This document shows positions 801 to 42,188 of a stretch of 44,192 bases of DNA, piece after piece. The DNA is from Rhodocyclaceae bacterium. Its GTDB lineage: Bacteria > Pseudomonadota > Gammaproteobacteria > Burkholderiales > Rhodocyclaceae. The notes beneath the pieces were generated by a model. It had not been told where the DNA came from. It made no database searches and was given only the letters and a program-made list of their open reading frames with translations. The stretch spans positions 1 to 44,192 of the forward strand of contig JAABQX010000013.1 in assembly GCA_011391215.1 (NCBI GenBank), written 5' to 3'. Each line of letters begins with the position of its first letter. Position 1 is the first letter of the stretch. Position numbers and translations under genes: made by a program.

Positions 801-824
801 AAAGTCGGTGCTGGCGGGACGGCG
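801..824 (+). repeat. Dispersed 24-bp repeat, copy 1, long form
   Basis: Near-consensus copy starting one base after the TAA stop (797-799) of the TusE/DsrC gene. It is followed by further partial units (next entry). It lies between that gene and the start of the next one at 904. Confidence 0.85.
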
Positions 825-893
825 ATTAGCCGGACTGCCGCGTTCATGGGGACGGCGATTCGCCGGATCGCCGCCTGTATGGGGACGGCGGCG
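816..893 (+). repeat. Tandem 33-bp units extending repeat copy 1
   Basis: The motif GGGACGGCG recurs at 816, 849 and 882, exactly 33 bases apart. The segments between are similar (GATTAGCCGGACTGCCGCGTTCAT and GATTCGCCGGATCGCCGCCTGTAT differ at few positions when read in parts). The period is 11 codons, so the tract stays open in translation. A single further unit is also seen at the copy near 19.7 kb, which suggests that the full element is longer than its 24-bp core. Confidence 0.75.
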
Positions 894-903
894 GTAGCTT
901 GAT

Positions 904-1515
904 ATGGCAGTCCGCATCCGTTCCCGTTTTCATGCCGGTGGTCAGTCTCGCTCGATGGCCACGCTGGCCAGCGTCGTGGCAGTTCTGTCATGGAAGCTCG
1001 CCATTGACGCCCTCAATCGCATGCGTCAGGCGGACTACGACATCGATATCGGTCGTCCCTACCTCGATTTCGTTTCCGAATTCACAGTTTTCCTTGCTTT
1101 GCTGGCGGACCGTATTGCCTATCGCGATCTTGACGCCGACCAACGGATCGAGTTCACCACGGCCCTTGCCAAGCGCCTCTCTTCATTGGTCGAGGAAAAC
1201 TTCGGCACCTATCTCGAAGATGTCGTGCCTGGCGAAATGAGTAATCATGTTCTTGAATTGTTCAACCGCCGCAGCGTGGATTACGCCGAGTTCAATTACA
1301 CGCAAGATGGCCCGGACTTCGGTTTCAAGCGCTGTTTCGCTGCCTGTCTGCGCGAAGGGCTGCCGGAAAAAGACAAACTTTGGGTGGTCGATCAGGTGAT
1401 GGATATCGAGGTACCCGAAGCCATGAAGGCACTGAATAAAACCTTGGCCGGGCTGTTTCATCCCGAGGTCAATGAAAGTCGGCACCGCAAAGACGGTAGC
1501 GCGACGGGAGAGTGA
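904..1515 (+). CDS. Conserved-looking hypothetical protein, mostly helical
   Basis: I do not recognise this 203-residue protein. It is predicted mainly alpha-helical with acidic stretches (DYDIDIGRPYLDF, DLDADQRIEF, DKLWVVDQVMDIEVPE) and no clear membrane segment or catalytic motif. Neither ATG 904 nor ATG 955 has a good ribosome binding site; the upstream sequence is the tandem repeat tract, which may have replaced the original leader. ATG 955 (MATLASVVAVLSWKL) is a plausible alternative start. The last residues (SRHRKDGSATGE) are encoded by a degenerate copy of the dispersed repeat. The stop overlaps a potential GTG of the following dioxygenase gene, so the two are probably co-transcribed. 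Confidence 0.6.
   Translation: MAVRIRSRFHAGGQSRSMATLASVVAVLSWKLAIDALNRMRQADYDIDIGRPYLDFVSEFTVFLALLADRIAYRDLDADQRIEFTTALAKRLSSLVEENFGTYLEDVVPGEMSNHVLELFNRRSVDYAEFNYTQDGPDFGFKRCFAACLREGLPEKDKLWVVDQVMDIEVPEAMKALNKTLAGLFHPEVNESRHRKDGSATGE
1474..1497 (+). repeat. Dispersed repeat, degenerate copy
   Basis: AAAGTCGGC is intact, followed by a diverged half ending AGACGGTA; about 16 of 24 positions match the consensus by hand alignment. It encodes the C-terminal SRHRKDG of the upstream hypothetical protein, a third forward reading frame of the repeat. It could be chance resemblance. Confidence 0.35.
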
Positions 1516-1517
1516 GT

Positions 1518-2402
1518 ATGTTCGGGCCGTTTGATTTTGAAGAAACAGTTGCATACGCACACTGGCGTGAACGGAAACTCGATACCGCCCCGCGCCGGGT
1601 GGAGGATATCGTTCTCGAACTCGATGATCCGCGCCGGCTCAGTCCGTCCGAACGGCAACGCCTCATCGATCTCAATGCCTCCTGCAACATGGCGATCTAT
1701 GTCAGCAAGTCCGGCGCTGATCCCGACAAGGATATTCCGCGCTTGCTGGGCCAGCAGTTGGGGCTCAAGACGCTCGACGGCCACTGGCTGACGGACAACG
1801 ATGGCATTTCGCCGATTTCAGTCACCGGCGCCGAGGCGCGTGGCGAACGCAAGGAGTTCATTCCCTATACCGACAAGCCGATTCGCTGGCATACCGACGG
1901 TTACTACAACACACCCGAACATACGATTCGCGGCCTGATTCTGCATTGCGTGCGCAGCGCGGCGAGCGGCGGCGACAACCAGCTACTCAATCACGACCTC
2001 GCCTACATTCTGCTGCGCGACGAGAACCCGGATTTTATCCGTGCCCTGTCTGCCCCCGATGCCATGACCATCCCGGCGCGCCTGGACGATGACGGTGTAG
2101 CGCGCGCAGAACAGCCCGGCCCGGTCTTCTCGGTGGATGCCGACGGCTTTCTGCACATGCGCTATACGGCGCGCACCGTCAGTATTACCTGGCGCGATGA
2201 TCCGCTGACCCAAGCCGCGCTGGCTGCGCTGGCACGTATCCTCGCCACGCCCACGCCCTGGACGTTGCATGGCCGCCTCGAACCGGGCATGGGCCTGGTC
2301 TGCAACAATGTGCTGCACGATCGCAGCGGCTTCACGGAAACGCCCGAGAAGCGCCGGCTGCTGTATCGCGCCCGTTACTACGAGCGCGTCGCGGCTGCCT
2401 GA
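1518..2402 (+). CDS. TauD/TfdA family Fe(II)/2-oxoglutarate dioxygenase
   Basis: A 294-residue enzyme of the TauD/TfdA fold. The facial triad is visible as the HTD motif in RWHTDGYYNTPEH (Fe ligands His and Asp) and the distal His in NNVLHDRSGF near the C-terminus. A following Arg (RRLLYRARYY) fits the 2-oxoglutarate contact. The family couples decarboxylation of 2-oxoglutarate to hydroxylation of a small substrate; the substrate cannot be read from the sequence. I prefer ATG 1518, because GGGAG at about 1505-1509 is well spaced for it and too close for the alternative GTG at 1512. The gene overlaps or abuts the preceding gene, which suggests coupling. Confidence 0.85.
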   Translation: MFGPFDFEETVAYAHWRERKLDTAPRRVEDIVLELDDPRRLSPSERQRLIDLNASCNMAIYVSKSGADPDKDIPRLLGQQLGLKTLDGHWLTDNDGISPISVTGAEARGERKEFIPYTDKPIRWHTDGYYNTPEHTIRGLILHCVRSAASGGDNQLLNHDLAYILLRDENPDFIRALSAPDAMTIPARLDDDGVARAEQPGPVFSVDADGFLHMRYTARTVSITWRDDPLTQAALAALARILATPTPWTLHGRLEPGMGLVCNNVLHDRSGFTETPEKRRLLYRARYYERVAAA

Positions 2403-2414
2403 ACGGCATGCCGA

Positions 2415-2420
2415 TATAAT
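2415..2420 (+). promoter_or_regulatory. Possible -10 element upstream of the HDOD gene
   Basis: A perfect TATAAT lies 38 bases before the ATG at 2459, in the gap after the dioxygenase gene. No good -35 hexamer is seen at the proper distance, so this is tentative. Confidence 0.35.
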
Positions 2421-2458
2421 CGGGCCAAGTTCAATTTCTCCTGGCCGATCCGATAGCG

Positions 2459-3328: not shown

Positions 3329-3337
3329 GGAGCAACC

Positions 3338-4219
3338 ATGAAAGTCAGTATGTGGGGCGTACGTGGATCGATCCCTTCGCCCGGCCCGCGCAGTGTGCGC
3401 TATGGTGGCAACACCACGTGCATCGAGGTGCGCAGCGATGACGACAGCCTGATTATTCTTGATGCCGGCACGGGCATCTTTCCTCTAGCGCAAACCTTGC
3501 TCGCGAAGCTACCTGTCACCGCGCATGTTTTCATCACCCATACGCACTGGGACCATATTCAGGGCCTGCCTTTTTTTGTGCCGTTGTACATTCCCGGCAA
3601 CAAGGTGCGCATCCACGGTGCCTACGACATTGTGTCGATGCAGGGAATCGAGCAGATCATGAACGTGCAGTTGCAATACAGTTATTTCCCGATTCGTGAG
3701 GCGGAGCTCAAAGCCGGCATCGAATACCAGACGCTGACCGTCGGCGAGCCGGTGATAATTGGCGATGCCACCGTGACACCGGTGCTGATGAACCACCCGG
3801 TCACGGATCTCGGTTATCGCGTCGAGTGCAACGGTAAGTCGATGTTTTTTACCGGGGATCATGAGCCCTGGGTCAATATCTATGCGCCTGAAGATCCCGA
3901 GCATGCCGAGTATCAGGCAATGATCGATCAGCGCCAGGCGGAACTCGATGCCGCCATCGGCCCGGTGGATTTGCTCGTCGCTGATGCCGCCTATACGCTG
4001 GCCGAATACCCACCGAAGATCGGTTGGGGACACGGCACATTCGACAGCACCATCCAAATGGCACAACGCATCGGCGCGAAGCGACTGATCTGTACCCACC
4101 ATGAACCAACTCGCTGCGACGACGATCTCGAGAAGGTATTTGCCGAAGCGATCAATCGTCACCCCGAACCCGGTTGCGAGGTCATGCTGGCCCGCGAGGG
4201 CCTGGAGCTTGCTCTTTAA
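3338..4219 (+). CDS. MBL-fold metallo-hydrolase
   Basis: 293 residues with the metallo-beta-lactamase zinc motif THTHWDHIQG, a later metal ligand in FFTGDHEP and the C-terminal ICTHHEP. The N-terminus MKVSMWGVRGSIPSPGP is typical of the subgroup related to phosphodiesterases and PqsE/PhnP-like hydrolases. The substrate is unknown. GGGAG precedes the ATG with correct spacing. The gene probably forms a unit with the upstream HDOD gene. Its TAA stop (4217-4219) overlaps the stop of the convergent J-domain gene (4216-4218). Confidence 0.85.
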   Translation: MKVSMWGVRGSIPSPGPRSVRYGGNTTCIEVRSDDDSLIILDAGTGIFPLAQTLLAKLPVTAHVFITHTHWDHIQGLPFFVPLYIPGNKVRIHGAYDIVSMQGIEQIMNVQLQYSYFPIREAELKAGIEYQTLTVGEPVIIGDATVTPVLMNHPVTDLGYRVECNGKSMFFTGDHEPWVNIYAPEDPEHAEYQAMIDQRQAELDAAIGPVDLLVADAAYTLAEYPPKIGWGHGTFDSTIQMAQRIGAKRLICTHHEPTRCDDDLEKVFAEAINRHPEPGCEVMLAREGLELAL

Positions 4220-5652
4220 GGGCTTGCTGCCTCTGCCTTTGTAAGGTAATCAAGCTCGAACTTGGCCAGGTCGATCTGGCTATCTAGCCGCTTGGCCATT
4301 TCCTGCAATAAATCGCGTCCCTGGCGGGTGGCGATGCGTGCAGCGGCAAACAGTTCATAAAGTTTCGAGCCATAGAGGCGGTCAAGTTCGGTGACGATCG
4401 CGGCGAGGCGCCGGCGAATCTTCGTGGCTTCTTCGACCAGCGCCGCAGCGTCATCAGAAGTCGGCGTTGGCGGGACGGCGCCCGTGGTCGCAGAACGGCC
4501 ACATTCCCGGCCTTCAAGCCAAAGGGAGAGAACTTCATCGAGGGCACAGGCATCGCCGGCGCGATAGGCGCGGTTGGCCTCGCTCATCAAGTGAGTGCGC
4601 CAAGCGCGGTCATCTTCGTTCGTTGCCCGATCGGGATGAATCTTTTGCGCCAGCTGCCGGAATTGTTTTTTTAGATCGTTACTGGGGGCAAAGCGCTCGC
4701 TGTTATCTGCCCTTCTGGTTTGGAAGGAATTATTTTCCTTGCCTGATTGTTCGGCGCGCGCCTCGGCCTGTCTGGCGGCAGCATCCAGGTCGGGGTTGTC
4801 GGGTGCGCTCTGCCTGCGCAGTTTGGCCAGGTCGGCCTGCAGGCGATCAAGCTCGGCCATGCGTCCCGCGATAACATTGTGGTAGTGCTCGGTAAAGCGG
4901 GTGAGCTCACCTTGTGCCGTGGCGAGTTCGAGTTCCATTTCTGCCAGTTCCTGGCCGAGAACTTCGATTTCCGCACGCAGACGGGCGGTTTCGTCGATCA
5001 CCGCCAGCACCGTTGCCCCGCTTAACGGCCCGGGAGCCAGCATCAGCGTGCAGCGTGCGCCCGGCCACGGGGTGCGTACATTGGCGGGCAGTTGCCCAGA
5101 CTGGATGAGCATCACCCAATCGGCGGGTGCGGCAAGGCGTTCTGCCAGCGCCCACGGACCGATGCGTACCGGAAAGAGCTTGCCGATGCCTGCGGGGGGA
5201 ACTTCGCGGTCGACTCCGCGCGTTCCCCAGGCGAGGCTGGCGCGCCAGAGGGCGTCATCATCCTGCAGGTGCTCGCGCATAGCGGCCCAGGCGGGACCTT
5301 CGCTATCTTCGGCAGAGCGTGTCAGGCGGCTTTTCAATAGTGAGAGCGTGGCACGCAGGGCAATGCGCCCCGCGTAGTTTGCGCCAGGCAGCACGAGGCA
5401 GAGCGGGCGCAGGCGCAGGTCAAGAGCGTTCGAGATGTCCGGCAGCAGGGCGTCGTCGGCAGTGACGATCCACAGGCTGCGGTCGCGTGCCAGCGCTTCT
5501 GCGGCGAGTGCGGCAAGCGCCGGCACGGTGACGGATGGATCGGCCGGGGCGCCGATTTCGCGAAAAGTCTGCCCCTGCGGCACGGCAACGCGAGCGGTAA
5601 ACAGCCCGAGCCAAGCCTCAAGGGTGCGCGCGATATCCGGAGCAGAATCCAT
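4216..5652 (-). CDS. J-domain protein with large N-terminal region
   Basis: 478 residues. A DnaJ-type J domain lies near residues 320-370 (DLKKQFRQLAQKIHPDRA, with the essential HPD at about 336-338), so the domain is internal and not at the N-terminus. Before it, residues about 215-295 form a strong coiled coil (ETARLRAEIEVLGQELAE and following). The N-terminal 200 residues resemble no family I recognise. There is no Gly/Phe or zinc-finger region, so this is a class III J protein that would recruit an Hsp70 to a special client. Residues about 391-398 (AVPPTPTS) are a translated dispersed repeat. The stop codon overlaps the convergent MBL gene's stop. Confidence 0.7.
   Translation of the reverse strand: MDSAPDIARTLEAWLGLFTARVAVPQGQTFREIGAPADPSVTVPALAALAAEALARDRSLWIVTADDALLPDISNALDLRLRPLCLVLPGANYAGRIALRATLSLLKSRLTRSAEDSEGPAWAAMREHLQDDDALWRASLAWGTRGVDREVPPAGIGKLFPVRIGPWALAERLAAPADWVMLIQSGQLPANVRTPWPGARCTLMLAPGPLSGATVLAVIDETARLRAEIEVLGQELAEMELELATAQGELTRFTEHYHNVIAGRMAELDRLQADLAKLRRQSAPDNPDLDAAARQAEARAEQSGKENNSFQTRRADNSERFAPSNDLKKQFRQLAQKIHPDRATNEDDRAWRTHLMSEANRAYRAGDACALDEVLSLWLEGRECGRSATTGAVPPTPTSDDAAALVEEATKIRRRLAAIVTELDRLYGSKLYELFAAARIATRQGRDLLQEMAKRLDSQIDLAKFELDYLTKAEAASP
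4457..4480 (+). repeat. Dispersed repeat, copy 2, inside the J-domain gene
   Basis: One or two changes from consensus. On the minus strand it is read in frame as AVPPTPTS, in a low-conservation linker between the J domain and the C-terminal helical part. Confidence 0.85.
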
Positions 5653-6832: not shown

Positions 6833-7819
6833 ATGAGCGCATGGCGCCAGCGTGGTGTGCTGGCGCGAGTTTTGTGGCCGCTCGGCTTCATCTTCTCCAT
6901 TGTTGTCGCCCTGCGTCGCATGGCGTATCGCCGTGGTTGGATGGGCGTCGAACGCTTGCCGGTACCTGTCGTGGTGGTGGGCAATATTATCGCCGGCGGG
7001 GCAGGGAAGACACCTTTGACCCTCTGGTTAGCGCAGCAACTGACCACCTTGGGACGCAAGCCCGGCATCGTCAGTCGTGGCTATGGGCGTGAAACGAGCA
7101 GAATACTTGAGGTAAAAGTCGGTACTGGCGGGACGGCAGCAAATGTCGGCGATGAACCGCTCTTGCTCGCGCAACGCTCGGGCTGTCCGGTTTTTGTCGG
7201 CAGCGACCGCGCTGCCGCTGCGCAGGCCTTGCTGGCTGCATATCCTGATAGCGATTTGATCCTCTGCGACGATGGATTGCAGCACTACCGTCTGGCGCGC
7301 GATGTTGAAATTGCCGTTATCGATCGGCGTGGTCTGATGAATGGATGGTTACAGCCTGCCGGACCCTTGCGCGAACCGGCAAGTCGACTGCGGGAGGTTG
7401 ATGCCTTGGTGCTGAATGACACTGAAGCCGCGCCAGTTACAGGGGTGCCTTTGTTCAGGATGCATCTGGAAGGCGACATCTTTTATCAACTGGATAATCC
7501 GGCTACGACCTGCACGATAAGTGATCTGCAAGGGCTCAAACTGCATGCCGTGGCCGGCATCGGCGAGCCGCAACGTTTTTTCGATCACCTGGCTGCCTCG
7601 GGTTTGCGTTTCGAGTCGCAGGCCTTTCCAGATCATCATCATTACACCAGCGCAGATTTAAGCTTTGCTGGCGATGCGCTGGTGATGACGGAAAAGGACG
7701 CGCTAAAATGCGCCGGCCTTACCACGCTGCCGATCTGGGTGTTACCGGTCGATGCCTGCATCGAGCCTGATCTCGCCCGCTTTGTCTTGGAGAAAATCGA
7801 TGGATCCGCGCCTGCTTGA
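6833..7819 (+). CDS. lpxK: Tetraacyldisaccharide 4'-kinase
   Basis: About 328 residues. LpxK phosphorylates the 4' position of the tetraacyldisaccharide precursor of lipid A at the inner membrane. Visible are an N-terminal membrane-associated helix ([17 protein letters not shown]), the P-loop [19 protein letters not shown], the [11 protein letters not shown] block, DDGLQHYRL and MTEKDALK near the C-terminus. ATG 6833 is taken as the start; TTG 6800 is also in frame. The gene overlaps the exbD stop only if the TTG is used. Residues 94-102 (VKVGTGGTA), between SRGYG and VGDEP, are a translated dispersed repeat in a loop that is variable in the family. The 3' end overlaps trm112. Confidence 0.93.
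7114..7138 (+). repeat. Dispersed repeat, copy 3, inside lpxK
   Basis: Differs from consensus at three positions (GGTACT for GGCGCT, final A). Read in frame as KVGTGGTA within lpxK. Confidence 0.85.
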
Positions 7820-13044: not shown

Positions 13045-13069
13045 AAAAGTCGGCGCCGGCGGGACGGCG
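13045..13069 (+). repeat. Dispersed repeat, copy 4, between hppA and murJ
   Basis: One change from consensus (GCC for GCT). It sits between the hppA terminator and the 3' end of the convergent murJ gene (stop at 13084). Confidence 0.85.
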
Positions 13070-19676: not shown

Positions 19677-19690
19677 ACGGTTCGGGCGCC

Positions 19691-19743
19691 GTCCCCATGT
19701 TGGCGGCGGCCCGGCTGTCGTCGTCTCGCCAGCGCCGACTTTT
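19691..19743 (-). repeat. Dispersed repeat, copy 5, long form
   Basis: On the minus strand the core (19719-19743) reads AAAAGTCGGCGCTGGCGAG and continues, 32 bases on, into CATGGGGACGGCG (19687-19699). That matches the second unit of the copy at 801-893. The core overlaps the last bases of the amidotransferase stop codon (19742-19744). Confidence 0.8.
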
Positions 19744-24049: not shown

Positions 24050-24074
24050 CGCCGTCCCGCCAGCGCCGACTTTT
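24050..24074 (-). repeat. Dispersed repeat, copy 6, perfect consensus
   Basis: Intergenic, directly after the thiolase terminator and 28 bases before the Nudix gene. Consensus sequence on the minus strand. Confidence 0.9.
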
Positions 24075-26814: not shown

Positions 26815-28872
26815 ATGACAGAATCCTTCGAAAGCTTTGCCGCGCTGCAATTGCCGGCCGCTTTGCTGACGGCCCTCGCGGATGTCGGCTATGAAACCCC
26901 GTCGCCGATCCAGGCGGCTTGTATTCCGTTGTTTCTCGCCGGCCGCGATTTGATCGGCGAGGCGCAAACCGGTACCGGCAAGACGGCGGCTTTCGCCTTG
27001 CCGCTGCTGGCACGGCTCGATCTGGCTAAAAAAGTGCCGCAGGCGCTGGTGCTGACGCCGACCCGCGAACTGGCGATTCAGGTTGCCGAGGCTTTCCAGA
27101 AATACGCCCACCACATGCCTGGCTTCCATGTGCTACCAGTGTATGGCGGGCAAAGCATGGTGATCCAGTTGCGCGCACTGTCGCGTGGGACCCATATCAT
27201 TGTCGGCACGCCAGGCCGTGTCATGGATCACCTTGAGCGTAAGAGCCTTAATCTCGATGGCCTGCAAACGCTGGTGCTAGACGAGGCTGACGAAATGCTG
27301 CGCATGGGTTTCATCGACGATGTCGAGTGGATTCTCGAGCACACGCCGGCGGCGCGCCAGACGGCACTCTTTTCGGCGACCATGCCTGATCCGATCCGCC
27401 GCATCGCGCAGCGTTATCTGCGCGCACCCGAGCAGGTGAAGATCCGTTCCGCCACGACAACGGTAGCGGCCATCAAGCAAAGATATTGGCAAGTGCGTGG
27501 TGCGGACAAGCTGGAGGCGCTGACGCGCATGCTTGAAGTCGAGGAGGAATTCGAGGCTGCCCTGATTTTTGTGCGTACCAAACTCGCCACCGTCGATCTG
27601 GCCGAGAAGCTCGAAGCGCGGGGTTATGAAGCAGCCGCCCTGAACGGCGACATGACCCAGGGCTTGCGCGAGCAGGTGGTCGAGCGGCTGAAAAGCGGTA
27701 GTCTCGATATCGTCGTGGCCACCGACGTCGCGGCACGCGGGCTGGATGTGCCGCGCATCAGCCATGTCATCAACTACGACGTGCCCTATGACACCGAAGC
27801 CTATGTGCATCGCATCGGCCGCACGGGTCGGGCCGGTCGTACCGGCAATGCCATTCTTTTCGTCGCGCCGCGCGAGATGCGTATGCTCAAAGCCATCGAG
27901 CGCGCCACGCGCCAGCCGATCGAAGCCATCCAGATGCCGACGCGTGGCGAAGTGGCCGAGCGTCGCGTTACGCAATTCAAGCAGCAGATCCTCGATGTGC
28001 TCGCCGAGGAAAACCTCGACTTCTTCTTCGAGGTGGTCCGCCGCATGGAGAGCGAGGAAAATGTTGCCACGCGCCAGATCGCCGCAGCGCTGGCCTTCCT
28101 CGCCCAGCGCGAGCGTCCTCTGCAGCCTATCGGTGTTGATGCGCCAGAATATCCGGCTGCGCCACCCCGCCCGGAGCGGCCTGTTTTTGCGGATCGTGGT
28201 GAGCGACCGGTGCGTGCCGAACGTCCGCCTTTCACCGAGCGCGGTGAACGCAGCGAGCGTCCCGCCCAGACCGAATGGATTGAACGTCCCGCGCGCGCGG
28301 AGCGCCCGCCCCGCGAACCGCGTGCTTTCACTGTCGGCAAAGTAGTGCGGTACCGCATCGAAGTTGGTCGCAACCAGGGCGCATTGCCGAAGGAAATTGT
28401 CGGTGCCATCGCCAACGAAGGCGGTATCGAGGGCAAGCTTATCGGCCAGATCAATCTGTTCGACGATTACAGCACGGTCGAATTACCCGAACTGCCGGCC
28501 GAGGTTCTCGATATCCTCAAGCGCACCCGCGTACGCCAACTACCGCTGAAAATTCGCGTGGCCGAAGCCGGGGAAGGCGAAACGCGCCGACCTGCCAAGC
28601 CGCGCTGGGAAAAGGATCGCGAGACGCCCCGGGAGATGCGTGAGCGCCGTCCCGCCAGCGCCGACTTTCCGGCGCGTCCCCGGCGGGACATCCCGCATTC
28701 CGCCAGTCCCACGGGGATTTCCTCCGGTCACGCCGACTTTTCCGCGAAGTCGCCTTACCGGGGCGACAAGAAACCGGCGGGCGAATGGCAAGGCCGCGGG
28801 GCGGGTAAAGGGGCAGGCAATCCAGCCGCTAAGCTGGGCAGTAAGCCGCCTGCCAAGAAGCGCCCTTACTGA
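26815..28872 (+). CDS. deaD: DEAD-box ATP-dependent RNA helicase with DbpA-type RNA-binding domain
   Basis: 685 residues. Core helicase motifs are in order: Q motif region (FAALQLPAALLTALADVG), AQTGTGKT (about 50-57), PTRELAIQ, GTPGR, LDEADEM (about 155), SAT, and HRIGRTGRAGRTG (about 332). Residues about 505-585 form a DbpA-like RNA-recognition domain (GQINLFDDYSTVELP). A proline/arginine linker with repeated ERP units precedes it. The tail after about residue 590 is low-complexity; residues about 611-618 (RRPASADF) are a translated dispersed repeat and HADFSAKS resembles a second partial copy. Likely roles are ribosome assembly and cold-stress RNA remodelling. Confidence 0.93.
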   Translation: MTESFESFAALQLPAALLTALADVGYETPSPIQAACIPLFLAGRDLIGEAQTGTGKTAAFALPLLARLDLAKKVPQALVLTPTRELAIQVAEAFQKYAHHMPGFHVLPVYGGQSMVIQLRALSRGTHIIVGTPGRVMDHLERKSLNLDGLQTLVLDEADEMLRMGFIDDVEWILEHTPAARQTALFSATMPDPIRRIAQRYLRAPEQVKIRSATTTVAAIKQRYWQVRGADKLEALTRMLEVEEEFEAALIFVRTKLATVDLAEKLEARGYEAAALNGDMTQGLREQVVERLKSGSLDIVVATDVAARGLDVPRISHVINYDVPYDTEAYVHRIGRTGRAGRTGNAILFVAPREMRMLKAIERATRQPIEAIQMPTRGEVAERRVTQFKQQILDVLAEENLDFFFEVVRRMESEENVATRQIAAALAFLAQRERPLQPIGVDAPEYPAAPPRPERPVFADRGERPVRAERPPFTERGERSERPAQTEWIERPARAERPPREPRAFTVGKVVRYRIEVGRNQGALPKEIVGAIANEGGIEGKLIGQINLFDDYSTVELPELPAEVLDILKRTRVRQLPLKIRVAEAGEGETRRPAKPRWEKDRETPREMRERRPASADFPARPRRDIPHSASPTGISSGHADFSAKSPYRGDKKPAGEWQGRGAGKGAGNPAAKLGSKPPAKKRPY
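28645..28668 (-). repeat. Dispersed repeat, copy 7, in the helicase C-terminal tail
   Basis: Consensus copy on the minus strand, read on the plus strand in frame as RRPASADF. A partial second copy (AAAAGTCGGCGTG on the minus strand) lies at about 28730-28742, with related GC-rich sequence (CGGCGGGACATCCCGC) between them. Confidence 0.9.
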
Positions 28873-29964: not shown

Positions 29965-29989
29965 CGCCGTCCCGCCAGCGCCAACTTTT
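29965..29989 (-). repeat. Dispersed repeat, copy 8, between lpxH and yaeQ
   Basis: One change from consensus (AAAAGTTGG). It begins directly after the lpxH TGA stop (29990-29992) and ends 12 bases before the yaeQ ATG, filling most of the 37-base gap. Confidence 0.88.
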
Positions 29990-30718: not shown

Positions 30719-30721
30719 GGC

Positions 30722-31216: not shown

Positions 31217-31226
31217 TTTGAAGTCC

Positions 31227-31790
31227 TTATTTTTTCTCGGGCAACAGGGTTACGGATTCGATCACGATGGGAGCCGTGGGAACGTTCTGGTGGCCACCGG
31301 CGTTGCCTGTGGCGACCTTGGCGATTTTTTGGACGACGTCTTGCCCTTGCACGACCTTGCCGAATACGGCATAGCCCCAGCCGTCCTGGCCAGGGTAGTC
31401 GAGGAAGCTGTTGTCCTTGAGGTTGATGAAGAACTGTGCGCTGGCCGAATGCGGGTTCGGCGTGCGTGCCATGGCGATGCTGCCGGTGACGTTCTTCAGT
31501 CCATTTTTCGCCTCATTCTGGATCGGCGCACGCGTCGGTTTTTCTTTCATGCCGGCCTCGAAACCACCGCCCTGGATCATGAAGTTGTCAATGACGCGAT
31601 GAAAGATGGTGCCGTTATAGAAGCCATCCTTGACGTACTGCAGGAAGTTTTCGACGGTCTTGGGGGCCTTGACGGCATCCAGTTCAAACACGATCACGCC
31701 CTGATTGGTCTTGAGTTCGACTTGCGGATTGGCTGCCATGGCTGACAGCGAAAGGCAAAAGAGGGACAACAAAGCAAACAGTTTTTTCAT
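31227..31790 (-). CDS. ppiA: Peptidyl-prolyl cis-trans isomerase, cyclophilin type, periplasmic
   Basis: 187 residues with a signal peptide ([18 protein letters not shown], cleavage after AMA). The cyclophilin domain parallels the neighbouring ppi[40 protein letters not shown] and [15 protein letters not shown]. The ATG at 31790 was chosen because it begins the signal peptide; a longer open frame upstream is the shadow of the next gene. It folds exported proteins. Confidence 0.93.
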
Positions 31791-33024: not shown

Positions 33025-34163
33025 CCGCCCACCCGCTCTTCATGAATCAACCATTTGCCGTCGCGTTTGACCATTACCAGGGTTTTGCCGGAGGAAGATT
33101 CGAAACTGGCAGACTTGTAGTTCTGGCGGAAACGCACAATTGCCTTGTCGGAACCTTCGGCCTTGACAGTCAGTTTGTCGCGACTGACCTCGATCTTGCC
33201 AGGCTTGGCAACACGCTGACTGCGCTCTGTTTCCCAATCCTTGCGCGATTGGCCGCCAGGGGTCTGGAAGTCTCTGGCGTAGTGCGACAGATAAGCTTTC
33301 ACATCCTTTTTCGACCAAGCGGAAAGCCAGCCATCAACGGTGGCGGTGACCTCGCTGCTGATGTCAGCCGGTTTGGCGGGTTCCGGCGCCGGCTTGCTCT
33401 CGGCTGGCTTGACTACGGGAACGGAGGCTGGAGATTTGACGGGTTCGACAACCTGCGGTTTTGCAATGGCAACCATGGCAGGTGCCACTGGTGGTACGGC
33501 AGGCGCGGGTGGAGTAATCCCCACCGGGCTTGGCGCGGCAGGCTTGCCAGTTGCTGCAATTGCCGTCTTGCCAGCGCCGACTTTTTCCTTGGGACTGCCA
33601 GCCCCGCCAACCAGTTCGTTGATCATCGACAGTTTGGTTTGTGCAGAGGCATTGGAGGCGTCGATCTGCAATGCCTTGCCATACGCATCACTCGCCAGTC
33701 GCGAGTAAATGTCACCGAGATTCTCGTGCGCGGTGGCATAGGCCGGATGGGTGCGGATTGCCAACTCCAGCGCCTGTTTGGCCTTGTCGTACTGCTTTTG
33801 CTGGGCGTAGATCACGGCCAGGTTGTTGTAAGGCTCGGGTAATTCCGGATAGTCTTCGGTGAGTTTCTTGAAGACCACAATGGCTTCGTCGGGCTTGTTT
33901 AGCCCCGTGAGGATGATGCCCTTGAGAAAACGTCCTTGCGCATCCTTCGGCTTGCCGGCGAGGTGGCGGTTGACCTGCTCCAGGGCCTTGGCATGCTGAC
34001 CGGCCTTGAATGACTGGTTGGCGTCATCGAGTGTGTCTGCAAGGACGGGCAGGGCACTCAAACCAAGTGTCACCAGGCCCGTGAGCAACAGTAATACCCG
34101 CGAGAAAAACCGCGCACCGGGGTGAAGGCGAATTGCGGTCGAAAAAGCGGGGAAAATAGGCAT
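33021..34163 (-). CDS. Exported TPR-repeat protein with C-terminal NTF2-like domain
   Basis: 380 residues. A signal or anchor sequence (FFSRVLLLLTGLVTLGLSAL, cleavage near VLA) is followed by about four TPR motifs at about 45-175 (NNLAVIYAQQKQYDKAKQAL, HENLGDIYSRLA), a proline/alanine/lysine-rich linker at about 185-270 and an NTF2-like domain (WSKKDVKAYLSHYARDFQTP and KRDGKWLIHEE). Residues about 194-201 (KVGAGKTA) in the linker are a translated dispersed repeat. Overlap with the L,D-transpeptidase gene and the shared C-terminal domain suggest a joint envelope role. Confidence 0.85.
   Translation of the reverse strand: MPIFPAFSTAIRLHPGARFFSRVLLLLTGLVTLGLSALPVLADTLDDANQSFKAGQHAKALEQVNRHLAGKPKDAQGRFLKGIILTGLNKPDEAIVVFKKLTEDYPELPEPYNNLAVIYAQQKQYDKAKQALELAIRTHPAYATAHENLGDIYSRLASDAYGKALQIDASNASAQTKLSMINELVGGAGSPKEKVGAGKTAIAATGKPAAPSPVGITPPAPAVPPVAPAMVAIAKPQVVEPVKSPASVPVVKPAESKPAPEPAKPADISSEVTATVDGWLSAWSKKDVKAYLSHYARDFQTPGGQSRKDWETERSQRVAKPGKIEVSRDKLTVKAEGSDKAIVRFRQNYKSASFESSSGKTLVMVKRDGKWLIHEERVGG
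33562..33585 (-). repeat. Dispersed repeat, copy 9, in the linker of the TPR protein
   Basis: Three changes from consensus (AAG for GGG, final A). On the minus strand, in frame, it encodes KVGAGKTA. Confidence 0.85.
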
Positions 34164-34318: not shown

Positions 34319-35698
34319 ATGCTGAAAATCTACAACTCTCTTGCACGTGCCAACCAGGAATTTGTGCCGATCGAGCCCGGCAAAGTACGACTCTATGTTT
34401 GCGGCATGACTGTGTATGACTACTGCCATCTGGGTCATGGCCGGGTGATGGTCGTCTTCGACATGGTGGTGCGCTGGTTGCGGGCGAGCGGGCTGGCAGT
34501 GACCTATGTGCGCAACATCACTGATATTGACGACAAAATCATCAAACGTGCTGCTGAAAACGGCGAAACGGTGCGGGCGCTGACCGATCGTTTTATCGGT
34601 GCCATGCACGGGGATGCACGGGCCCTGGGGGTGCAAATACCCGATCACGAGCCGCGCGCCACCGAATTTGTGCCGCAGATGCTCGACATGATCGGGGCGC
34701 TGGAAAAGAACGGCTACGCTTACCTCGCCGCCAATCAAGACGTTTGTTATTCGGTGCGCAAGTTCGCCGGTTACGGCAAGCTTTCCGGCAAATCCATTGA
34801 GGATTTGCGTGCCGGTGAGCGCGTCGATGTCATGGAAGGCAAGCAGGATCCGCTGGATTTTGTACTCTGGAAACATGCCAAACCAGAGGAGTCCGCCGAA
34901 GTGAAATGGGATTCAGCCTGGGGCAGGGGGCGCCCCGGCTGGCACATCGAGTGCTCCGCAATGAGTTCGCAACTGCTGGGCGAGCATTTCGACATCCACG
35001 GCGGTGGCCAGGACTTGCAGTTTCCCCACCACGAAAACGAGATTGCCCAGAGCGAGGGTGCGCATGGCAAGACCTTCGTGAACTACTGGATGCACAACGG
35101 TTTTGTACGCGTCGATAATGAAAAGATGTCGAAATCGCTCGGCAATTTTTTCACTATCCGCGACATCCTCAAGAAGTACGACGCCGAGGTGGTGCGCTTC
35201 TTCATCCTGCGCGCCCACTACCGCAGCCCGCTGAATTACTCCGACGCCCACCTCGATGATGCGCGTGCGGCTTTGTCGCGGCTCTATACGGCGCTGAAGG
35301 GTTTCGACGTTCCGGCGCAGTTTGATTGGGACGAAGCCTACGCCTGCCATTTCCGCGAGGCGATGGATGATGACTTCGCCACGCCTGAGGCCGTCGCGGT
35401 GCTGTTTGACATCGCCAATGAAGTCAATCGCAACAAGGATCCCAAGCTGGCTGCGCAACTCAAGGGATTGGGGGGTGTACTGGGCTTGCTGCAACGCGAT
35501 CCGGTCGCGTTTTTGCAGGCCGGTCCGGTGGTGGCCGATGGCCTGAGTGCGGCGGAGATCGACGAAAAAGTCGGTGCTCGCAATACGGCGAAACAAGCGA
35601 AAAACTACGCCGAGGCCGACCGCATCCGCGCTGAACTTAAGGTCGCCGGTATCATGCTGGAGGACGGACCCCAGGGAACAACCTGGCGGCGGGGGTAG
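34319..35698 (+). CDS. cysS: Cysteinyl-tRNA synthetase
   Basis: 459 residues, standard length. Class I synthetase signatures: [17 protein letters not shown] (HIGH-type HLGH), zinc ligands including the Cys in [15 protein letters not shown] and [10 protein letters not shown], and the [12 protein letters not shown] loop. The C-terminal anticodon region ends [19 protein letters not shown]. It charges tRNA-Cys in the cytoplasm. It is divergent from the TPR gene across 155 bases. [13 protein letters not shown] resembles the dispersed repeat product but is the expected family sequence. Confidence 0.97.
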
Positions 35699-35875: not shown

Positions 35876-36688
35876 TTGGCGAGTGGCAGGGTGAGTGCGA
35901 CTGTGCTGGAAATCGAAGCGCCCAAGGTTGTCGCCTTGCTGGAGCAGGGACTGGCGGCGGAGCAAGGTATCCGAGGCTACAAGCGTCCGGGGCTGGCATT
36001 GGCGCTTTACTGTGAAGCCGGCGAGTTGGGGAGCGCCGAGGGTTTTTTTCAGGTCGGACGTACTCTGCGCAAGTCCGCTTCCGTATGGTATAGCCCGTCC
36101 TTGGGGAATGCCTATCTTGCGCTGGCGGCCAGTCTTGGCCATCAACAGGCCCAAGAACTTTATGATCCGGCGTTTGCCAATGCGTTTTTACCGGAACTCT
36201 GCGGCGATTTCGACAACATCATGGTCAGCGGAAAATTCGATCTTGATGGCTATCTGGCTGCCTTGTCACCCGCGCGGCAAAAAATCGCCGCATTGATTCG
36301 TCGCCATGCGCCGCGTTATGCAGTCGATACACGCTTTGGGCTGGCGGTCGCCTTGGCTGAATCGAACCTGAATCCACTGGCAGTCTCACCGAAAAACGCC
36401 CAAGGGGTGATGCAACTGATTCCCGACACGCAGGAGCGCTTCGGCGTCAAGAAACCCTTCGATCCGGAAAGCAGCATTCGTGGCGGTTTGACTTACTTGA
36501 AGTGGTTGTCGGCACGCTTTGGCGGTGATCTGGCCCTGGTGGCGGCTGCCTACAATGCAGGCGAAGGTACGGTCGACAAATATCAGGGTATTCCGCCTTA
36601 CTCGGAAACACGGCACTATGTACGTCGTGTGCTGTATTTTTCGGGTTTGGGGCTAACCGAACGCGCCAAGACTCCCCTGCTGCGATAG
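35855..36688 (+). CDS. Lytic transglycosylase (SLT domain), probably phase-variable
   Basis: 277 residues if read from TTG 35855, which has no ribosome binding site. A stop (TAG 35837-35839) closes the frame just upstream. The N-terminal 120 residues are helical and unrecognised (LYCEAGELGSAEGFFQVGR). The SLT/GEWL domain at about 145-265 has the catalytic Glu in ALAESNLNPLAVSPKNAQG, MQLIPDTQERFGV, AAAYNAGEGTVDKY and the C-terminal YVRRVLYF. The enzyme cleaves peptidoglycan strands. The proper secretion signal and SD/GTG start lie in another frame across the octanucleotide repeat. The stop TAG is inside a degenerate dispersed repeat. Confidence 0.8.
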   Translation: MPLCLFALASGRVSATVLEIEAPKVVALLEQGLAAEQGIRGYKRPGLALALYCEAGELGSAEGFFQVGRTLRKSASVWYSPSLGNAYLALAASLGHQQAQELYDPAFANAFLPELCGDFDNIMVSGKFDLDGYLAALSPARQKIAALIRRHAPRYAVDTRFGLAVALAESNLNPLAVSPKNAQGVMQLIPDTQERFGVKKPFDPESSIRGGLTYLKWLSARFGGDLALVAAAYNAGEGTVDKYQGIPPYSETRHYVRRVLYFSGLGLTERAKTPLLR

Positions 36689-36708
36689 TCGGCGCTGGCA
36701 GTACGGCT
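36685..36708 (+). repeat. Dispersed repeat, copy 10, diverged, overlapping the transglycosylase stop
   Basis: ATAGTCGGCGCTGGCAGTAC, then GGCT. The substitution in the A run creates the TAG stop codon (36686-36688) of the transglycosylase gene. Confidence 0.7.
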
Positions 36709-37804: not shown

Positions 37805-38334
37805 TTTTGTACCTCGTAGCGATAGAGCTTGACGTCGGGCGACCAGAAGTCGGTGGTGAAGCCGGCCTTCTGCTTGAGATGGGTGAAGAACTGCCGTGGA
37901 TCGGGCAGGCTTTCCCAGACTTGTGGCAGGAAGGTGCCACGCCGGCCGTGGCATTCGAGGATCATGCCGTCGATGCCGGGCCGCATCTGGCGGATGGCGT
38001 CGGTTTCGTCGCTGAAACTGAATGGCACTGCCGGCGTTAGTAGTGAAACCTCGACGCGCGTGTGATCGAGTTCGTTGCGCGTGAGTGGATTGAAACGCGG
38101 GTCACGGAAGGCTGCAGCTTTGGCGTTGGCGCGAATGTCCTGGTCGAGTGGTCGCCAAGCTTCCAGAGACCCGATGCAGCCGCGTAATTGGCCGTGCTGC
38201 GTCAGCGTCACGAAGGTAGCGCCAGCTTGTGTCAGCGCCGCTTGATCGGGTTCGGGCTGCTCTGCCACGCCGAATTCCCTGGCAATGGCGTTGCGGGCGC
38301 GAATCAATAGAGCGTTACCAAGTTCATCAAGCAT
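37780..38334 (-). CDS. amrA: AmmeMemoRadiSam system protein A (AMMECR1 domain)
   Basis: 184 residues, one AMMECR1 domain: GATFVTLTQHGQLRGCIGSL, then DPRFNPLTRNELDHTRVEVS and FLPQVWESLPDPRQFFTHLK. The LRGCIG motif is invariant in the family and may be catalytic. ATG 38334 was chosen from the overlap with amrB (8 bases) and the family start; the open frame extends to 38418. Translationally coupled to both neighbours. Confidence 0.92.
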   Translation of the reverse strand: MLDELGNALLIRARNAIAREFGVAEQPEPDQAALTQAGATFVTLTQHGQLRGCIGSLEAWRPLDQDIRANAKAAAFRDPRFNPLTRNELDHTRVEVSLLTPAVPFSFSDETDAIRQMRPGIDGMILECHGRRGTFLPQVWESLPDPRQFFTHLKQKAGFTTDFWSPDVKLYRYEVQKWKEPEKS

Positions 38335-39142
38335 GGCCGGGCTCCATGAAGGCGAAACTGGCATAGCCGACGACGCGCGACTTGTCTCCGGCCGTATCGC
38401 CGGAATTGCGCAGATCAAGAAGGTGCGGTTTCAATCCGCGCCGTTTGGCCACTTCGAGGAGGCCGTTGATCGGCGTTGCCCCGCAGGCTTGTTCATGGTC
38501 CACTAGTAGGCGCAGGTGGGCGATATCTTCGGCGGTGTGCCGGTCGCGGTGCTGGGCGTCTGCGTAGTTGTGGTAGTGCGAAAGATCGGAACTGATGACG
38601 ATCAGCGTTTCCGGTCCGCCCCACAGAAGATCCAGTACTTCGGCGACTTCGTTGGGCGTGGCAGAGCCGACCGCAAGGGGAACGAGGCTGAAGTCGTCCA
38701 GAACCTGTTGCAGGAATGGCAGTTGCACTTCCAATGAATGTTCGGCGGTGTGCGCGCTATCGTGACGGATCACCTGCGGCATCTTGAGCGCGGCAGAAAT
38801 GACTTGCTGATCGAGCGGCACTGTACCGAGTGGTGTGGCGAAACTGAGCGCACTGGGGACTGCCAATCCGCGTACGGCAACACGATGGCAGGGGCCGAGC
38901 AGCACGACACGCCGGATTTTTGTGGCAAAGGGTTCGAGAAGTGCATAAGCACTTGCTGCGATCGGCCCGGAATAGATGTACCCGGCGTGCGGACAAATCA
39001 AAACCTTGGGTTGCCCAAAAGTCGGTGCTGGCGGGACGGCGGCAGCAAGCAGGCTATCGACTTCATCGGCCAGCGTGGCGCGATTGCCCGGGTAGAACAT
39101 ACCGGCAACGGCCGGGGGGCGGGTGGTGCGATGTGCGTCCAT
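38327..39142 (-). CDS. amrB: AmmeMemoRadiSam system protein B (Memo domain)
   Basis: 271 residues. The Memo fold is related to class III non-heme iron dioxygenases; metal-site motifs are CPHAGYIYSGPIAASAYA, LGPCHRVAVRGLA, HTAEHSLEVQLPFLQ and SSDLSHYHNYADA. Residues 34-42 (AAVPPAPTF), just before the conserved PKVLICPHAGY block, are a translated dispersed repeat inserted in a linker. AAGGAG is well placed before the ATG. First gene of the amrB-amrA-amrS operon. Confidence 0.93.
   Translation of the reverse strand: MDAHRTTRPPAVAGMFYPGNRATLADEVDSLLAAAVPPAPTFGQPKVLICPHAGYIYSGPIAASAYALLEPFATKIRRVVLLGPCHRVAVRGLAVPSALSFATPLGTVPLDQQVISAALKMPQVIRHDSAHTAEHSLEVQLPFLQQVLDDFSLVPLAVGSATPNEVAEVLDLLWGGPETLIVISSDLSHYHNYADAQHRDRHTAEDIAHLRLLVDHEQACGATPINGLLEVAKRRGLKPHLLDLRNSGDTAGDKSRVVGYASFAFMEPGHA
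39017..39041 (+). repeat. Dispersed repeat, copy 11, inside amrB
   Basis: One change from consensus (GGTGCT). Read in frame on the minus strand as AVPPAPTF. Confidence 0.9.
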
Positions 39143-39188
39143 GACAACGCTCCTTTTTACCCAAAGGGTAGAGACTCAGATAGCAAAT

Positions 39189-40448
39189 TCAAGCCAACAG
39201 GAAAATTCCCAAGATAAATCCTACGCCGATTGCCGCCAGGCCGGGCAAGACGCGGCGCGCCAGCGGCTTGCCGCCGATGGCAATGACTAGTCCCGACTTG
39301 AAGGCAAGATTCGACAGGCTTGCCAGACCGATTGCGATGACGGCCGGGTTGGCCACGAGGGTTTGCTGATTGAACAGGCGCAGGGTCGATAAGGTGATGG
39401 CATCGACATCGGTGAGGCCGGAGGCGAGGGCGACGAGATACAGACCCTGGCTGCCGGCAATATCCTGCAGCCAGGCGGAGAGCAGCAAAACTGCTCCGTA
39501 GAGCAGGCCGAAGGAAAAGGCGGTGCGGATTTCGGTCGGATTTTTTACCTCGGGCAGGGGTAAATCACCCGCAGCGGTGAGGGTGCGCCACTTTAAGACC
39601 GCGACGACCAGGCCAAATGCCAGTCCGATGCCGAGCACGCCGGCGAGCGGCGCAAACAAAGTCGGCGCCAGCACGACGGCGACGATGCCGAGACGCAGGG
39701 TGACGACGAGATTGGCGATGAGAATGACTAGGGTTGCGGTGGCGGTCAGGTTGGGATCATCCCGGGCATTGCGCGCGAACACCAGCGTGGTGGCCGTGGA
39801 AGAGACCAGTCCGCCAAAGAATCCCAGCAGCGGCGCGCCGTGCCGGTTGCCGACGATGCGCAGGGCGGCGTAACCCGCCAGAGAAAGGCCGGAGATTAGT
39901 ACCACCATCCACCAGACCTGATGCGGGTTGAGCGCATGGTACGGGCCGTAGTCCTGGTTGGGCAGGATCGGCAACACCACCATCGACAGCACGCCGAATT
40001 GCAGGATGGAAATCAGATCCTTGTGCGTCAGGCTACGCGTCACGAGTTGGAGTTGCCCCTTGAAATAGAGCAACACGGTGGTCGTGATGGCGAGCATGAC
40101 CGCCAGCGTGGCTTGGCCGTACCAGACCAGCGCGCCCAGCCCGAAACAAACCATCAATGCAACCACCGAGGTAGTGCCCGGATCGCCATCATCTTGCGGG
40201 TCGCTGGCGAGCGCCACGATCATCATCGTTGCAGTCATCAGCAAACCCGCCGCGAGAATCCATCCGCTCCCCGATTTTTCGCCCAACAGCGCAGAGAGGC
40301 AACCTAACAACGCCGTCAGCGCAAAAGTTCGCAACCCGGCTTTGGCATCGGATTTGCGTTCCCTTTCCAAGCCGATCAGCAAGCCGATCCCGATACTAAC
40401 GGCAAACGCCTGAATATTCGGATAAGCGGCAGGTTCAAAGGTAATCAC
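39189..40448 (-). CDS. MgtC/SapB family membrane protein with DUF4010
   Basis: About 419 residues with about 11 to 13 membrane helices. The N-terminal MgtC-like region has IGIGLLIGLERERK and LRTFALTALLGCLSALL; the C-terminal DUF4010 part has LLGFFGGLVSSTATTLVFAR and ASGLTDVDAITLS. Its transport or regulatory role is unknown. GTG 40448 follows TATAAT on the minus strand (40455-40460) closely; the alternative ATG 40472 would share its bases with the ispD start codon. The gene is 46 bases from amrB on the same strand and may be co-transcribed. Confidence 0.88.
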   Translation of the reverse strand: MITFEPAAYPNIQAFAVSIGIGLLIGLERERKSDAKAGLRTFALTALLGCLSALLGEKSGSGWILAAGLLMTATMMIVALASDPQDDGDPGTTSVVALMVCFGLGALVWYGQATLAVMLAITTTVLLYFKGQLQLVTRSLTHKDLISILQFGVLSMVVLPILPNQDYGPYHALNPHQVWWMVVLISGLSLAGYAALRIVGNRHGAPLLGFFGGLVSSTATTLVFARNARDDPNLTATATLVILIANLVVTLRLGIVAVVLAPTLFAPLAGVLGIGLAFGLVVAVLKWRTLTAAGDLPLPEVKNPTEIRTAFSFGLLYGAVLLLSAWLQDIAGSQGLYLVALASGLTDVDAITLSTLRLFNQQTLVANPAVIAIGLASLSNLAFKSGLVIAIGGKPLARRVLPGLAAIGVGFILGIFLLA

Positions 40449-40470
40449 AAGCTCATTATAGAATCCGCCC

Positions 40471-41169
40471 ATGACTTATTTTGCACTTGTACCTGCGGGT
40501 GGCGGTGGTGCGCGCATGGGGGGCGACTGCCCCAAGCAATACCTGCCGATCGCCAGCCAGCCGCTGATCCGCCATACCCTTGGTGTGCTGGCTGCCGTGC
40601 CCGTGATCGAACGTGTTTTTGTCGTGTTGGCAGCGGATGACGCTCACTGGGATGGCTTCGATTGGCGTGACCTCGAGCCACGGCTGACGATATTGCGTTG
40701 CGGCGGGCCGACGCGGGCAGAGAGCGTCACGCGGGGCCTGCGCGCGATGCGCGAGCAGGTTGGGGCAGATGACTGGATTCTGGTGCACGATGCTGCCCGT
40801 GCCTGCCTGACGCGTGTCCATGTCGAAAAGCTCATCGCCGAGGTCGGCAATGATCCGGTTGGTGGCTTACTCGCCGTGCCGGTGGCGGATACGTTGAAAC
40901 GTGCGCAGGAGCTTTCATCTGACGGTGTGCGCGTTGCCGCCACCGTGCCACGCGAAGGCCTTTGGCAGGCGCAGACACCGCAGATGTTCCGCTATGGCCT
41001 GTTGGCCGAGGCGCTCGAATATGCGCAGACCGTCACTGATGAGGCCAGTGCCATCGAGGCGCTCGGCCTGCGTCCGCGACTGGTCGCGGCGGATGCGACT
41101 AATCTCAAGGTAACCTATCCGCTCGACCTGCAATTGGCCGAATGGATTTTGCAGAATAGGAATAGCTGA
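40471..41169 (+). CDS. ispD: 2-C-methyl-D-erythritol 4-phosphate cytidylyltransferase
   Basis: 232 residues. It forms CDP-methylerythritol in the non-mevalonate isoprenoid pathway. Motifs are [20 protein letters not shown] (CTP-binding glycine loop), [22 protein letters not shown] and [11 protein letters not shown], with [11 protein letters not shown] near the end. Directly followed by ispF after one base. Confidence 0.95.
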
Positions 41170-41170
41170 C

Positions 41171-41650
41171 ATGGATATCCGGGTGGGGCATGGCTATGAC
41201 GTGCATGCGTTGGTGACGGGGCGTCCGCTGATTCTCGGTGGCGTGACGATTCCTTATGAGCGGGGTCTGGCCGGCCATTCGGATGCCGATGTGCTGCTGC
41301 ATGCCATCACCGATGCGATTTTGGGGGCCGCTGCACTGGGGGATATTGGCCGCATGTTTCCCGATAGTGACGACAGCTGGAAAGGTGCTGATAGCCGCGT
41401 TTTGCTGCGTGGCGCGGTGGCGGCAGTGCACGCAGCCGGCTGGCGGGTGGGCAACATCGATTGCACGGTGATCGCCCAAACACCACGCGTTGCGCCGCAT
41501 GTAGCGGCAATGTGCGTGAACATTGCAGCTGACCTGGAAATCGCAACGGACTGCGTCAACGTCAAGGGCAAGACTACGGAACGGCTGGGTTTTGAAGGGC
41601 GCAGCGAGGGCATCGCCGCCGAGGCTGTCGCGCTCCTGATTCGTGCCTGA
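41171..41650 (+). CDS. ispF: 2-C-methyl-D-erythritol 2,4-cyclodiphosphate synthase
   Basis: 159 residues, standard length. The zinc site and active-site loops are visible: [57 protein letters not shown] and [20 protein letters not shown]. It follows ispD, as in most betaproteobacteria. The stop overlaps the following thpR start region. Confidence 0.97.
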
Positions 41651-42188
41651 ACCGGCAAGAGCGACGCGACGGGTATTTTTTGCCATTTGGCCCGATGCGG
41701 CGGCACTGGATGCTTTGGAGTTTGCCGCATCGTCCGGCGTTGCGCGCTGCGGCGGCCGACGCATGCGTCGCGACAGCCTGCATGTGACGCTGCAGTTTAT
41801 CGGTGCGGTTTCCCCTGATCAGCTTGCCAGCCTGCATGATGCCGCCGCCACGGTGTGTGCTGCGCCCTTCGAGATGGTGCTCGATCGCTTGGGCTGGTGG
41901 CCCCACAACCACATTCTCTGGGCGGGTTGTCAAGAGATGCCGTCCCGCCAGCGCCGACTTGTGGATACGCTATCGCAGGTGCTGCTGACGGCAGGTTTTC
42001 AGCCTGATTCACGGCAGCAGGTTCCGCATGTGACCCTGGTTCGCCAAGCCCGCTGCGACGGATTGCCGACGCTGCAGGTGCCTATCCGCTGGCGGGTTGG
42101 CGAGTTCTCCCTTGTCGAGTCATTTTTGCAACCCTCCGGTGCTCGTTACCGGGAACTGGCGTGTTGGCCGCTGCAGGAATACGCATAG
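41643..42188 (+). CDS. thpR: RNA 2',3'-cyclic phosphodiesterase (2H family)
   Basis: 181 residues. The two HxT motifs of the 2H phosphoesterase fold are HVTLQF (HVT) and HVTLVR, with [11 protein letters not shown] in the typical N-terminus after GTG 41643. It hydrolyses 2',3'-cyclic phosphates on RNA ends. Residues about 100-106 (PSRQRRL) are a translated dispersed repeat that takes the place of a similar-length helix start in homologues. The start overlaps the ispF stop. Confidence 0.88.
41939..41960 (-). repeat. Dispersed repeat, copy 12, inside thpR
   Basis: Nearly consensus on the minus strand (A run shortened). Read on the plus strand in frame as PSRQRRL. Confidence 0.85.

Follow-up and report, generated by a model that had tools for sequence, protein, structure and literature searches.

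A 24-bp repeat dispersed through genomes of Rhodocyclaceae is probably a DNA uptake sequence

The stretch of DNA analysed here (the window) comprises positions 1 to 44,192 of contig JAABQX010000013.1 from a Rhodocyclaceae bacterium (assembly GCA_011391215.1), and contains many copies of a 24-bp word which, judged by its copy number, distribution and conservation, is probably a DNA uptake sequence. The consensus is (A)AAAGTCGGYGCTGGCGGGACGGCR, 24 bp long, with an A usually found 5' of the word. All 12 main positions of the repeat carry AAAGTCGGYGCTGGCGGGACGGCR with 0-4 mismatches and match AAAAGTCGGYGCTGGCGGGACGGCG with 0-5 mismatches, six on the plus strand and six on the minus strand. An initial annotation had described a dispersed repeat at these positions, in both orientations, independent of gene strand and not clearly palindromic; this description holds, as regards orientation in the genome as well as in the window. 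A weaker copy that it placed at 1474 has only its first bases in common with the word (more than seven mismatches) and drops out.

Several copies lie between genes. An exact copy on the plus strand (801..824) begins one base past the stop codon of the open reading frame at 461-799 and is followed directly on its 3' side by two tandem 33-bp units ending ATGGGGACGGCG (825..890, plus strand). Another, with one mismatch (13046..13069, plus strand), separates the convergent genes for a proton pyrophosphatase and MurJ. On the minus strand, an exact intergenic copy at 24050..24073 adjoins what appears by eye to be a terminator-like hairpin, and further intergenic copies, each with one mismatch, are found at 29965..29988 and 41938..41961. 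The minus-strand feature at 19687..19742 consists of a copy with two mismatches (19719-19742) and then one unit ending ATGGGGACGGCG (19687-19700). Other copies are part of coding sequence. The plus-strand copy at 7115..7138 (one mismatch) lies inside lpxK (6872-7819) and encodes KVGTGGTA; this gene matches nearly the entire Pfam model, and alignment of its product with a solved LpxK requires no insertion in the window protein, the word being within the gene. The minus-strand gene at 33021-34088 contains a copy on its own strand (33561..33584, two mismatches) which encodes KVGAGKTA and falls between the TPR and Cds6_C domains. Three copies are antisense to their genes: 4457..4480 (plus strand, two mismatches), encoding GAVPPTPTS in the minus-strand gene at 4216-5652; 28645..28668 (minus strand, exact), encoding RRPASADF in the tail of a DEAD-box helicase gene (26815-28872); and 39018..39041 (plus strand, exact), encoding AAVPPAPTF in a Memo-family gene (38327-39142), whose product has three more residues than human MEMO1 in the proline-rich stretch there. 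A weak copy with four mismatches (36685..36708, plus strand) lies at the end of the gene at 35891-36688.

The word is not confined to the window. In a 394,668-base sample of the source genome (G000), consisting of the window and six other contigs, the 24-mer yields 113 matches with up to four mismatches, and the same pattern read backwards yields one, at four mismatches. Matches at 0 to 7 mismatches number 21, 43, 27, 11, 11, 6, 8 and 22, respectively; the backwards control gives none below four mismatches and 1, 1, 1 and 35 at four to seven. Copies with up to about five mismatches thus stand well above background. Across the full source assembly (2.33 Mb, 76% complete), a 23-mer with up to three mismatches occurs 244 times forward and 269 times in reverse (513 in total, against 1 + 0 for the control); a copy number no higher than chance, which would have spoken against the repeat, is therefore not what we see. 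Such extreme over-representation of one short word in both orientations is a property by which the DNA uptake sequences (DUS) and uptake signal sequences (USS) of other bacteria are recognized.

The word has an information content of about 34-37 bits, and the letters conserved within the genus of the source genome form two blocks, AAA-x-TCGGCGCTGG and ACGGC, around looser letters. In G002 and G017, two other members of the genus, position 4 and the GGG block are only loosely conserved and the last letter is mostly A, as against mostly G in G000. Outside the word only the preceding A is common in G000 (96 of 113 copies), and C is favoured after the word in G017 (64 of 85) and G002 (38 of 66).

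We called genes with our own simple gene finder, which assigns 92% of the G000 sample to coding DNA. Among the 113 copies, 66 are wholly inside genes, 10 are at gene edges and 37 are intergenic; intergenic copies are thus enriched, as they fall in about 8% of the sequence. Copies in the genes of G000 use only four of the six reading frames, two in sense (KVGAGGTA, 25 copies; KSALAGR, 6) and two in antisense (RRPASADF, 12; AVPPAPT, 23), and a fifth frame is used by one copy in G002 and two in G017. Copies in G000 are spaced more regularly than under random placement (coefficient of variation 0.72 vs 0.95, P = 0.0004), with five gaps shorter than 500 bases where 14.4 are expected. In G000, G002 and G017 alike, copies are densest between convergent genes (38.5, 17.4 and 12.8 per 10 kb, from 14, 9 and 6 copies) and sparsest between divergent genes (6.7, 2.5 and 3.5 per 10 kb, from 7, 2 and 3 copies). 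Enrichment between convergent genes, together with hairpins visible by eye beside some copies, would also suit a transcription- or RNA-level element, such as a terminator or processing site, that has multiplied at gene ends. We consider this very improbable, given that most copies are intragenic and on both strands, that the single word is by eye not self-complementary, and that an Rfam scan of the window gave no match.

We next consider how the word behaves at orthologous sites, using primarily G017 and G002, which are the closest complete pair (88% identical, both 100% complete). Of 38 coding copies in G017, 25 are kept in G002 (up to four mismatches), 12 are degraded (5-7 mismatches) and one is gone; of these 13 sites, ten, all with a degraded word, align through the core without interruption, and any core gaps at the others are shorter than 12 bases. 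In the reverse direction, all 25 G002 coding copies with an aligned partner are kept in G017. Third codon positions within the word are better conserved than those in other windows of the same genes, both from G017 to G002 (0.875 vs 0.757 identical, 38 sites) and from G002 to G017 (0.917 vs 0.761, 24 sites); none of 5000 resamplings reaches 0.875 or 0.917, although the two comparisons overlap in their sites. Five comparisons between G001 and G012 give 0.925 at third positions vs 0.704 in the flanks, and six comparisons of other close pairs give 0.833 vs 0.765. At first and second codon positions, identity within the word falls below that of other windows in one direction (0.898 vs 0.934, P = 0.007) and does not in the other (0.945 vs 0.940), which suggests that many words occupy permissive stretches of protein. 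The word is thus maintained in place, also inside genes, at the G002/G017 sites and at the five G001/G012 sites, and the specific conservation of third positions is at odds with the possibility, raised in the initial annotation, that relatives carry the same sequence merely as ancestral coding sequence.

The word also occurs in composite forms. In G000 a minority of copies are followed by one or two of the 33-bp units ending ATGGGGACGGCG, on contigs C6, C8 and C12 as well as in the window; by eye, base pairing seems possible between the 33-bp unit and the word's end (window positions 825-890 and 19687-19716). A long form, in which a 24-nt insert (TGACCGGAGGAAATCCCCGTGGGA) separates the first half of the word from the start of the second half, is present in the window at 28702..28741 (minus strand). 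It is found in six of the 19 genomes of the genus (11 copies in G000, 19 in G005, 40 in G008, one in G009, 33 in G010 and four in G015), with a 27-nt insert variant in G008, and replaces the short form at some orthologous sites between species. For some copies in G002 and G017, the word is preceded by two inverted halves that resemble a hairpin; such hairpin-word composites recur at about 1043100-1190050 of G002:C1 and about 1125500-1331000 of G017:C1.

These composites (hairpin plus word, word plus 33-bp units, and the long form), the enrichment of intergenic copies and the gaps that accompany intergenic losses are all features that would suit a short mobile element, akin to a repetitive extragenic palindrome (REP) or a miniature inverted-repeat transposable element (MITE) and copied by a transposase encoded elsewhere. 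The initial annotation favoured a small element of this sort, possibly mobilised by an enzyme elsewhere in the genome, and proposed looking for empty sites in relatives and for a REP-associated transposase. Among 36 sites with a relative lacking the word, none has a gap in the core as long as 20 bases, target duplications not having been sought separately. The REP-associated transposase family PF01797 is found in five of the 18 copy-rich genomes of the genus and was not found in the other 13, which include G002 and G017. The word resembles REPs, and the bacterial interspersed mosaic elements built from them, in being a short, high-copy repeat that is enriched between genes and has composite forms; it differs in its mostly intragenic location and lack of a palindrome, as well as in the scarcity of PF01797. 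Taken with the even spacing, the 25 of 38 coding copies kept between G017 and G002, and the conservation of third codon positions, these results lead us to judge a REP- or MITE-like element improbable. The alternative wording of the initial annotation, an element driven by gene conversion, comes close to what we consider the best explanation, provided that conversion is understood as recombination after biased DNA uptake; it is the mobile part of the claim that finds no support.

The word is widespread within the genus and has related forms outside it. It occurs at 200-681 places in 18 of the 19 genus genomes, and is absent from the remaining one, G006. Among 150 sampled genomes of the family, 16 genomes from six genera have it at 229-822 places, and the others have at most 47. 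Altered words, or dialects, are seen in G078 (AAGTCGACGCTGG..ACGGC) and G044 (AAGTCAGTCCCGG..ACGGC), these being the genomes for which words are listed. With a loose pattern built from words seen in the family survey, matches exceed those of the reversed pattern in G078 (159 vs 3), G044 (155 vs 4), G056 (74 vs 1) and G141 (40 vs 3), and in G074 only at 20 vs 6. In 194 genomes from other families of the order, the same pattern yields at most 12 matches, with the reversed control giving up to 15; those above their own control are G245 (12 vs 3), G228 (10 vs 3), G035 (9 vs 3) and G198 (9 vs 3). G245 and G035 contain some exact or near-exact words, which are perhaps imported. Small clusters of copies are also seen in copy-poor genomes (G114:C1:1461266-1502265, G089:C104:13082-19609 and in G245), a pattern that import of DNA from carriers would give. 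The 80 named contigs among the matches listed for an exact 22-mer are mostly labelled Rhodocyclaceae, Sulfuritalea or Sulfurisoma, and some are named otherwise.

To relate these distributions to phylogeny, a GyrA tree was inferred for 29 genomes out of 30 searched; G014, with a weaker, paralogue-like match, was left out, and the G008 and G141 sequences are partial. A split (96/98) divides 24 genomes, including every high-copy genome in the tree, from five others. The dialects thus follow the phylogeny, as do those of DUS, with the exceptions that dialect genome G044 is among the five outside the main group and that the 24 include two genomes without copies, G020 and G006. The latter clusters with G002, G004, G007 and G017 (100/99); its branch is long, and the program reports the placement as unsure. 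We considered that G006 might have a dialect of its own and rejected this, as no strongly enriched 12-mer was found in 311,726 bases, a few of them N. When 166 intragenic copies were compared with G006 proteins, only four were covered; two of these have a gap of one residue, which is seen in 4.7% of control windows, and the numbers are too few to interpret. The simplest reading is an old word that diverged into dialects and disappeared from G006. The initial annotation took the family to be recent or homogenised; a recent origin is contradicted by a word which is genus-wide and has dialects in other genera.

Even spacing, conservation at third codon positions and persistence across the genus would also follow if the word were bound inside the cell by a protein of chromosome organisation, segregation or repair, with direct selection on each site; two conserved blocks suit any DNA-binding protein. 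Chi, KOPS and matS are short words of this kind, found throughout the chromosome and kept by selection where they stand, and Chi and KOPS are polar signals. Our word shares with them its chromosome-wide distribution and differs in being 24 bp long, in varying between genera and in what seems to be little strand polarity, counted without mapping of replichores (40 plus and 45 minus copies in 400 kb of G017, 23 and 43 in 400 kb of G002, and near-balanced whole genomes). G006, placed within the genus by the GyrA tree, albeit on a long branch, has no copy, which is hard to reconcile with an essential function, and switching hundreds of sites to a new dialect would presumably be easier under conversion driven by uptake. 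We therefore regard a chromosomal protein site as unlikely, if less so than a mobile element.

Copy number, distribution, dialects, substitution in place, conserved third positions, even spacing and convergent enrichment are all properties of DUS, and from these we infer preferential uptake by a pilin followed by recombination. The word would act as a signal of self-recognition scattered over the genome and bound by a surface DNA receptor, putatively a minor pilin of the type IV pilus. During natural transformation, fragments with the word would be preferred for uptake and would recombine at the homologous site, so that alleles with the word tend to replace alleles without it; biased conversion of this kind could keep hundreds of copies near-identical without transposition. 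Competence machinery, which a DUS or USS system is expected to have, is present in the genus: the ComEC channel gene is found in 18 of 19 genomes, and the pilin families PF16732 (ComP_DUS) and PF12019 (GspH/FimT) in 17 and 18, respectively. PF16732 is of no use as a marker of carriers, as it occurs in 37 of 41 genomes. A second GspH/FimT-type pilin, found in many carriers and not in G006, was considered as a lead to the receptor and dropped, because in G020, which lacks the word, the only GspH match belongs to the same type; we take it to be an MSHA-like pilin.

Several observations weigh against an uptake sequence and need to be considered with it. ComP_DUS, GspH/FimT and ComEC are also found in carrier-free genomes, G006 included, and neither PF16732 nor PF12019 pilins were found in G000, an assembly that is 76% complete; the mechanism is thus permitted by the gene content, not proven by it. 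Known uptake sequences are shorter and denser (the neisserial one is a 10-12-mer, against 24 bp here). As to the depletion in recently acquired DNA that is expected of uptake sequences, copies per 10 kb do not differ consistently between unaligned and aligned DNA (1.77 vs 1.61 in G002; 1.43 vs 2.13 in G017, from 3 and 66 copies), where 'unaligned' means merely absent from the 400 kb compared of the other genome. The exact word occurs in 54 stretches of 53 IMG/VR viral contigs, which are possibly prophage flanks or phages of carriers. Composite repeats may be hitchhikers of the same spread, and are unexplained by uptake alone. At orthologous sites, the gapless pattern is less clear when all pairs are taken together: among 64 coding comparisons in which the word is degraded or lacking, 32 are gapless, 27 have a gap of 1-11 bases and five a gap of 12 or more. 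A fully lacking relative with a gapless core alignment exists for only five of the 36 sites, many alignments being ragged, and in 14 of 100 word-lacking comparisons 12-19 core bases are missing in the target, with ragged edges. Some of the gapped comparisons look like non-orthologous or doubtful alignments, or swaps with the long form. Because the pattern over all pairs is weaker than that for G017 and G002, we slightly lowered our confidence both in an uptake sequence and in the case for a third system set out below. A copy-free stretch of 29 kb in G002 has four transposase genes among the ten of its proteins examined; at a mean spacing of 6 kb, by our own estimate, its length is not striking.

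Uptake sequences are, to our knowledge, known from two families. The USS of Pasteurellaceae is a long motif that spans more than two helix turns and has A/T tracts as part of its architecture. The word is by comparison an unrelated GC-rich sequence in which such tracts are not seen; it is like the USS in being genome-wide, in both orientations and biased as to reading frame within genes, a bias described for uptake sequences in PMC2346458. The DUS of Neisseriaceae (GCCGTCTGAA; receptor ComP) is closer in its many genic and intergenic copies and its cloud of near-exact variants, and also in having dialects that follow phylogeny and inverted pairs at gene ends (PMC3630211 and PMC2397512). Neisserial dialects are congruent with the core-genome tree (PMC3630211). 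According to PMC2397512, DUS spacing matches conversion fragments, and DUS form inverted pairs within terminators and are missing from genes acquired recently; the same paper describes a debate over whether uptake sequences reflect self-recognition or molecular drive. Our word is nonetheless a different one, at 24 bp vs 10-12; it is several times sparser, belongs to another family and has only a putative receptor. GCCGTC is common to the DUS and, on the reverse strand, to the word, possibly by chance. Neisseriaceae and Pasteurellaceae are the uptake-sequence families named in PMC12616744. Among the matches listed in our literature search, which left subscription literature mostly outside, there was no earlier report of this word or repeat in Rhodocyclaceae or the wider Betaproteobacteria, and its novelty is accordingly provisional.

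With somewhat less assurance than for an uptake sequence as such, we favour a third, independently evolved uptake system in a clade of Rhodocyclaceae, whose 24-bp word has dialects at the level of genera, has disappeared from at least one fast-evolving lineage and comes with lineage-specific composites that are possibly parasites of the uptake drive; that the word is old enough to span several genera is part of this joint proposal and is held with the same reserve. If this is correct, uptake sequences would gain a third example, from environmental bacteria, that combines several dialects, a longer word and an apparent natural loss in G006, a member of the genus that lacks the word and has ComEC and pilin genes. 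Comparison with the other systems would then make it possible to test how words of this type originate, spread and change, and by which pilin they are read. Frequent natural transformation would be implied in the carriers, and adding the word to DNA could offer a practical route to transform them.

The window has a few further features of note. Weak plus-strand matches to the word, each with four mismatches, lie inside cysS (35567..35590), where the match may be due to chance or represent a partial word, and inside an MgtC/DUF4010 gene at 39189-40472 (39658..39681). Another weak match to AAAAGTCGGYGCTGGCGGGACGGCG is located at 5563, the weak class for that pattern spanning 4-6 mismatches. Finally, a direct repeat of 300 bp is found at 30865-31672, with 73% identity and a start-to-start distance of 508 bases.

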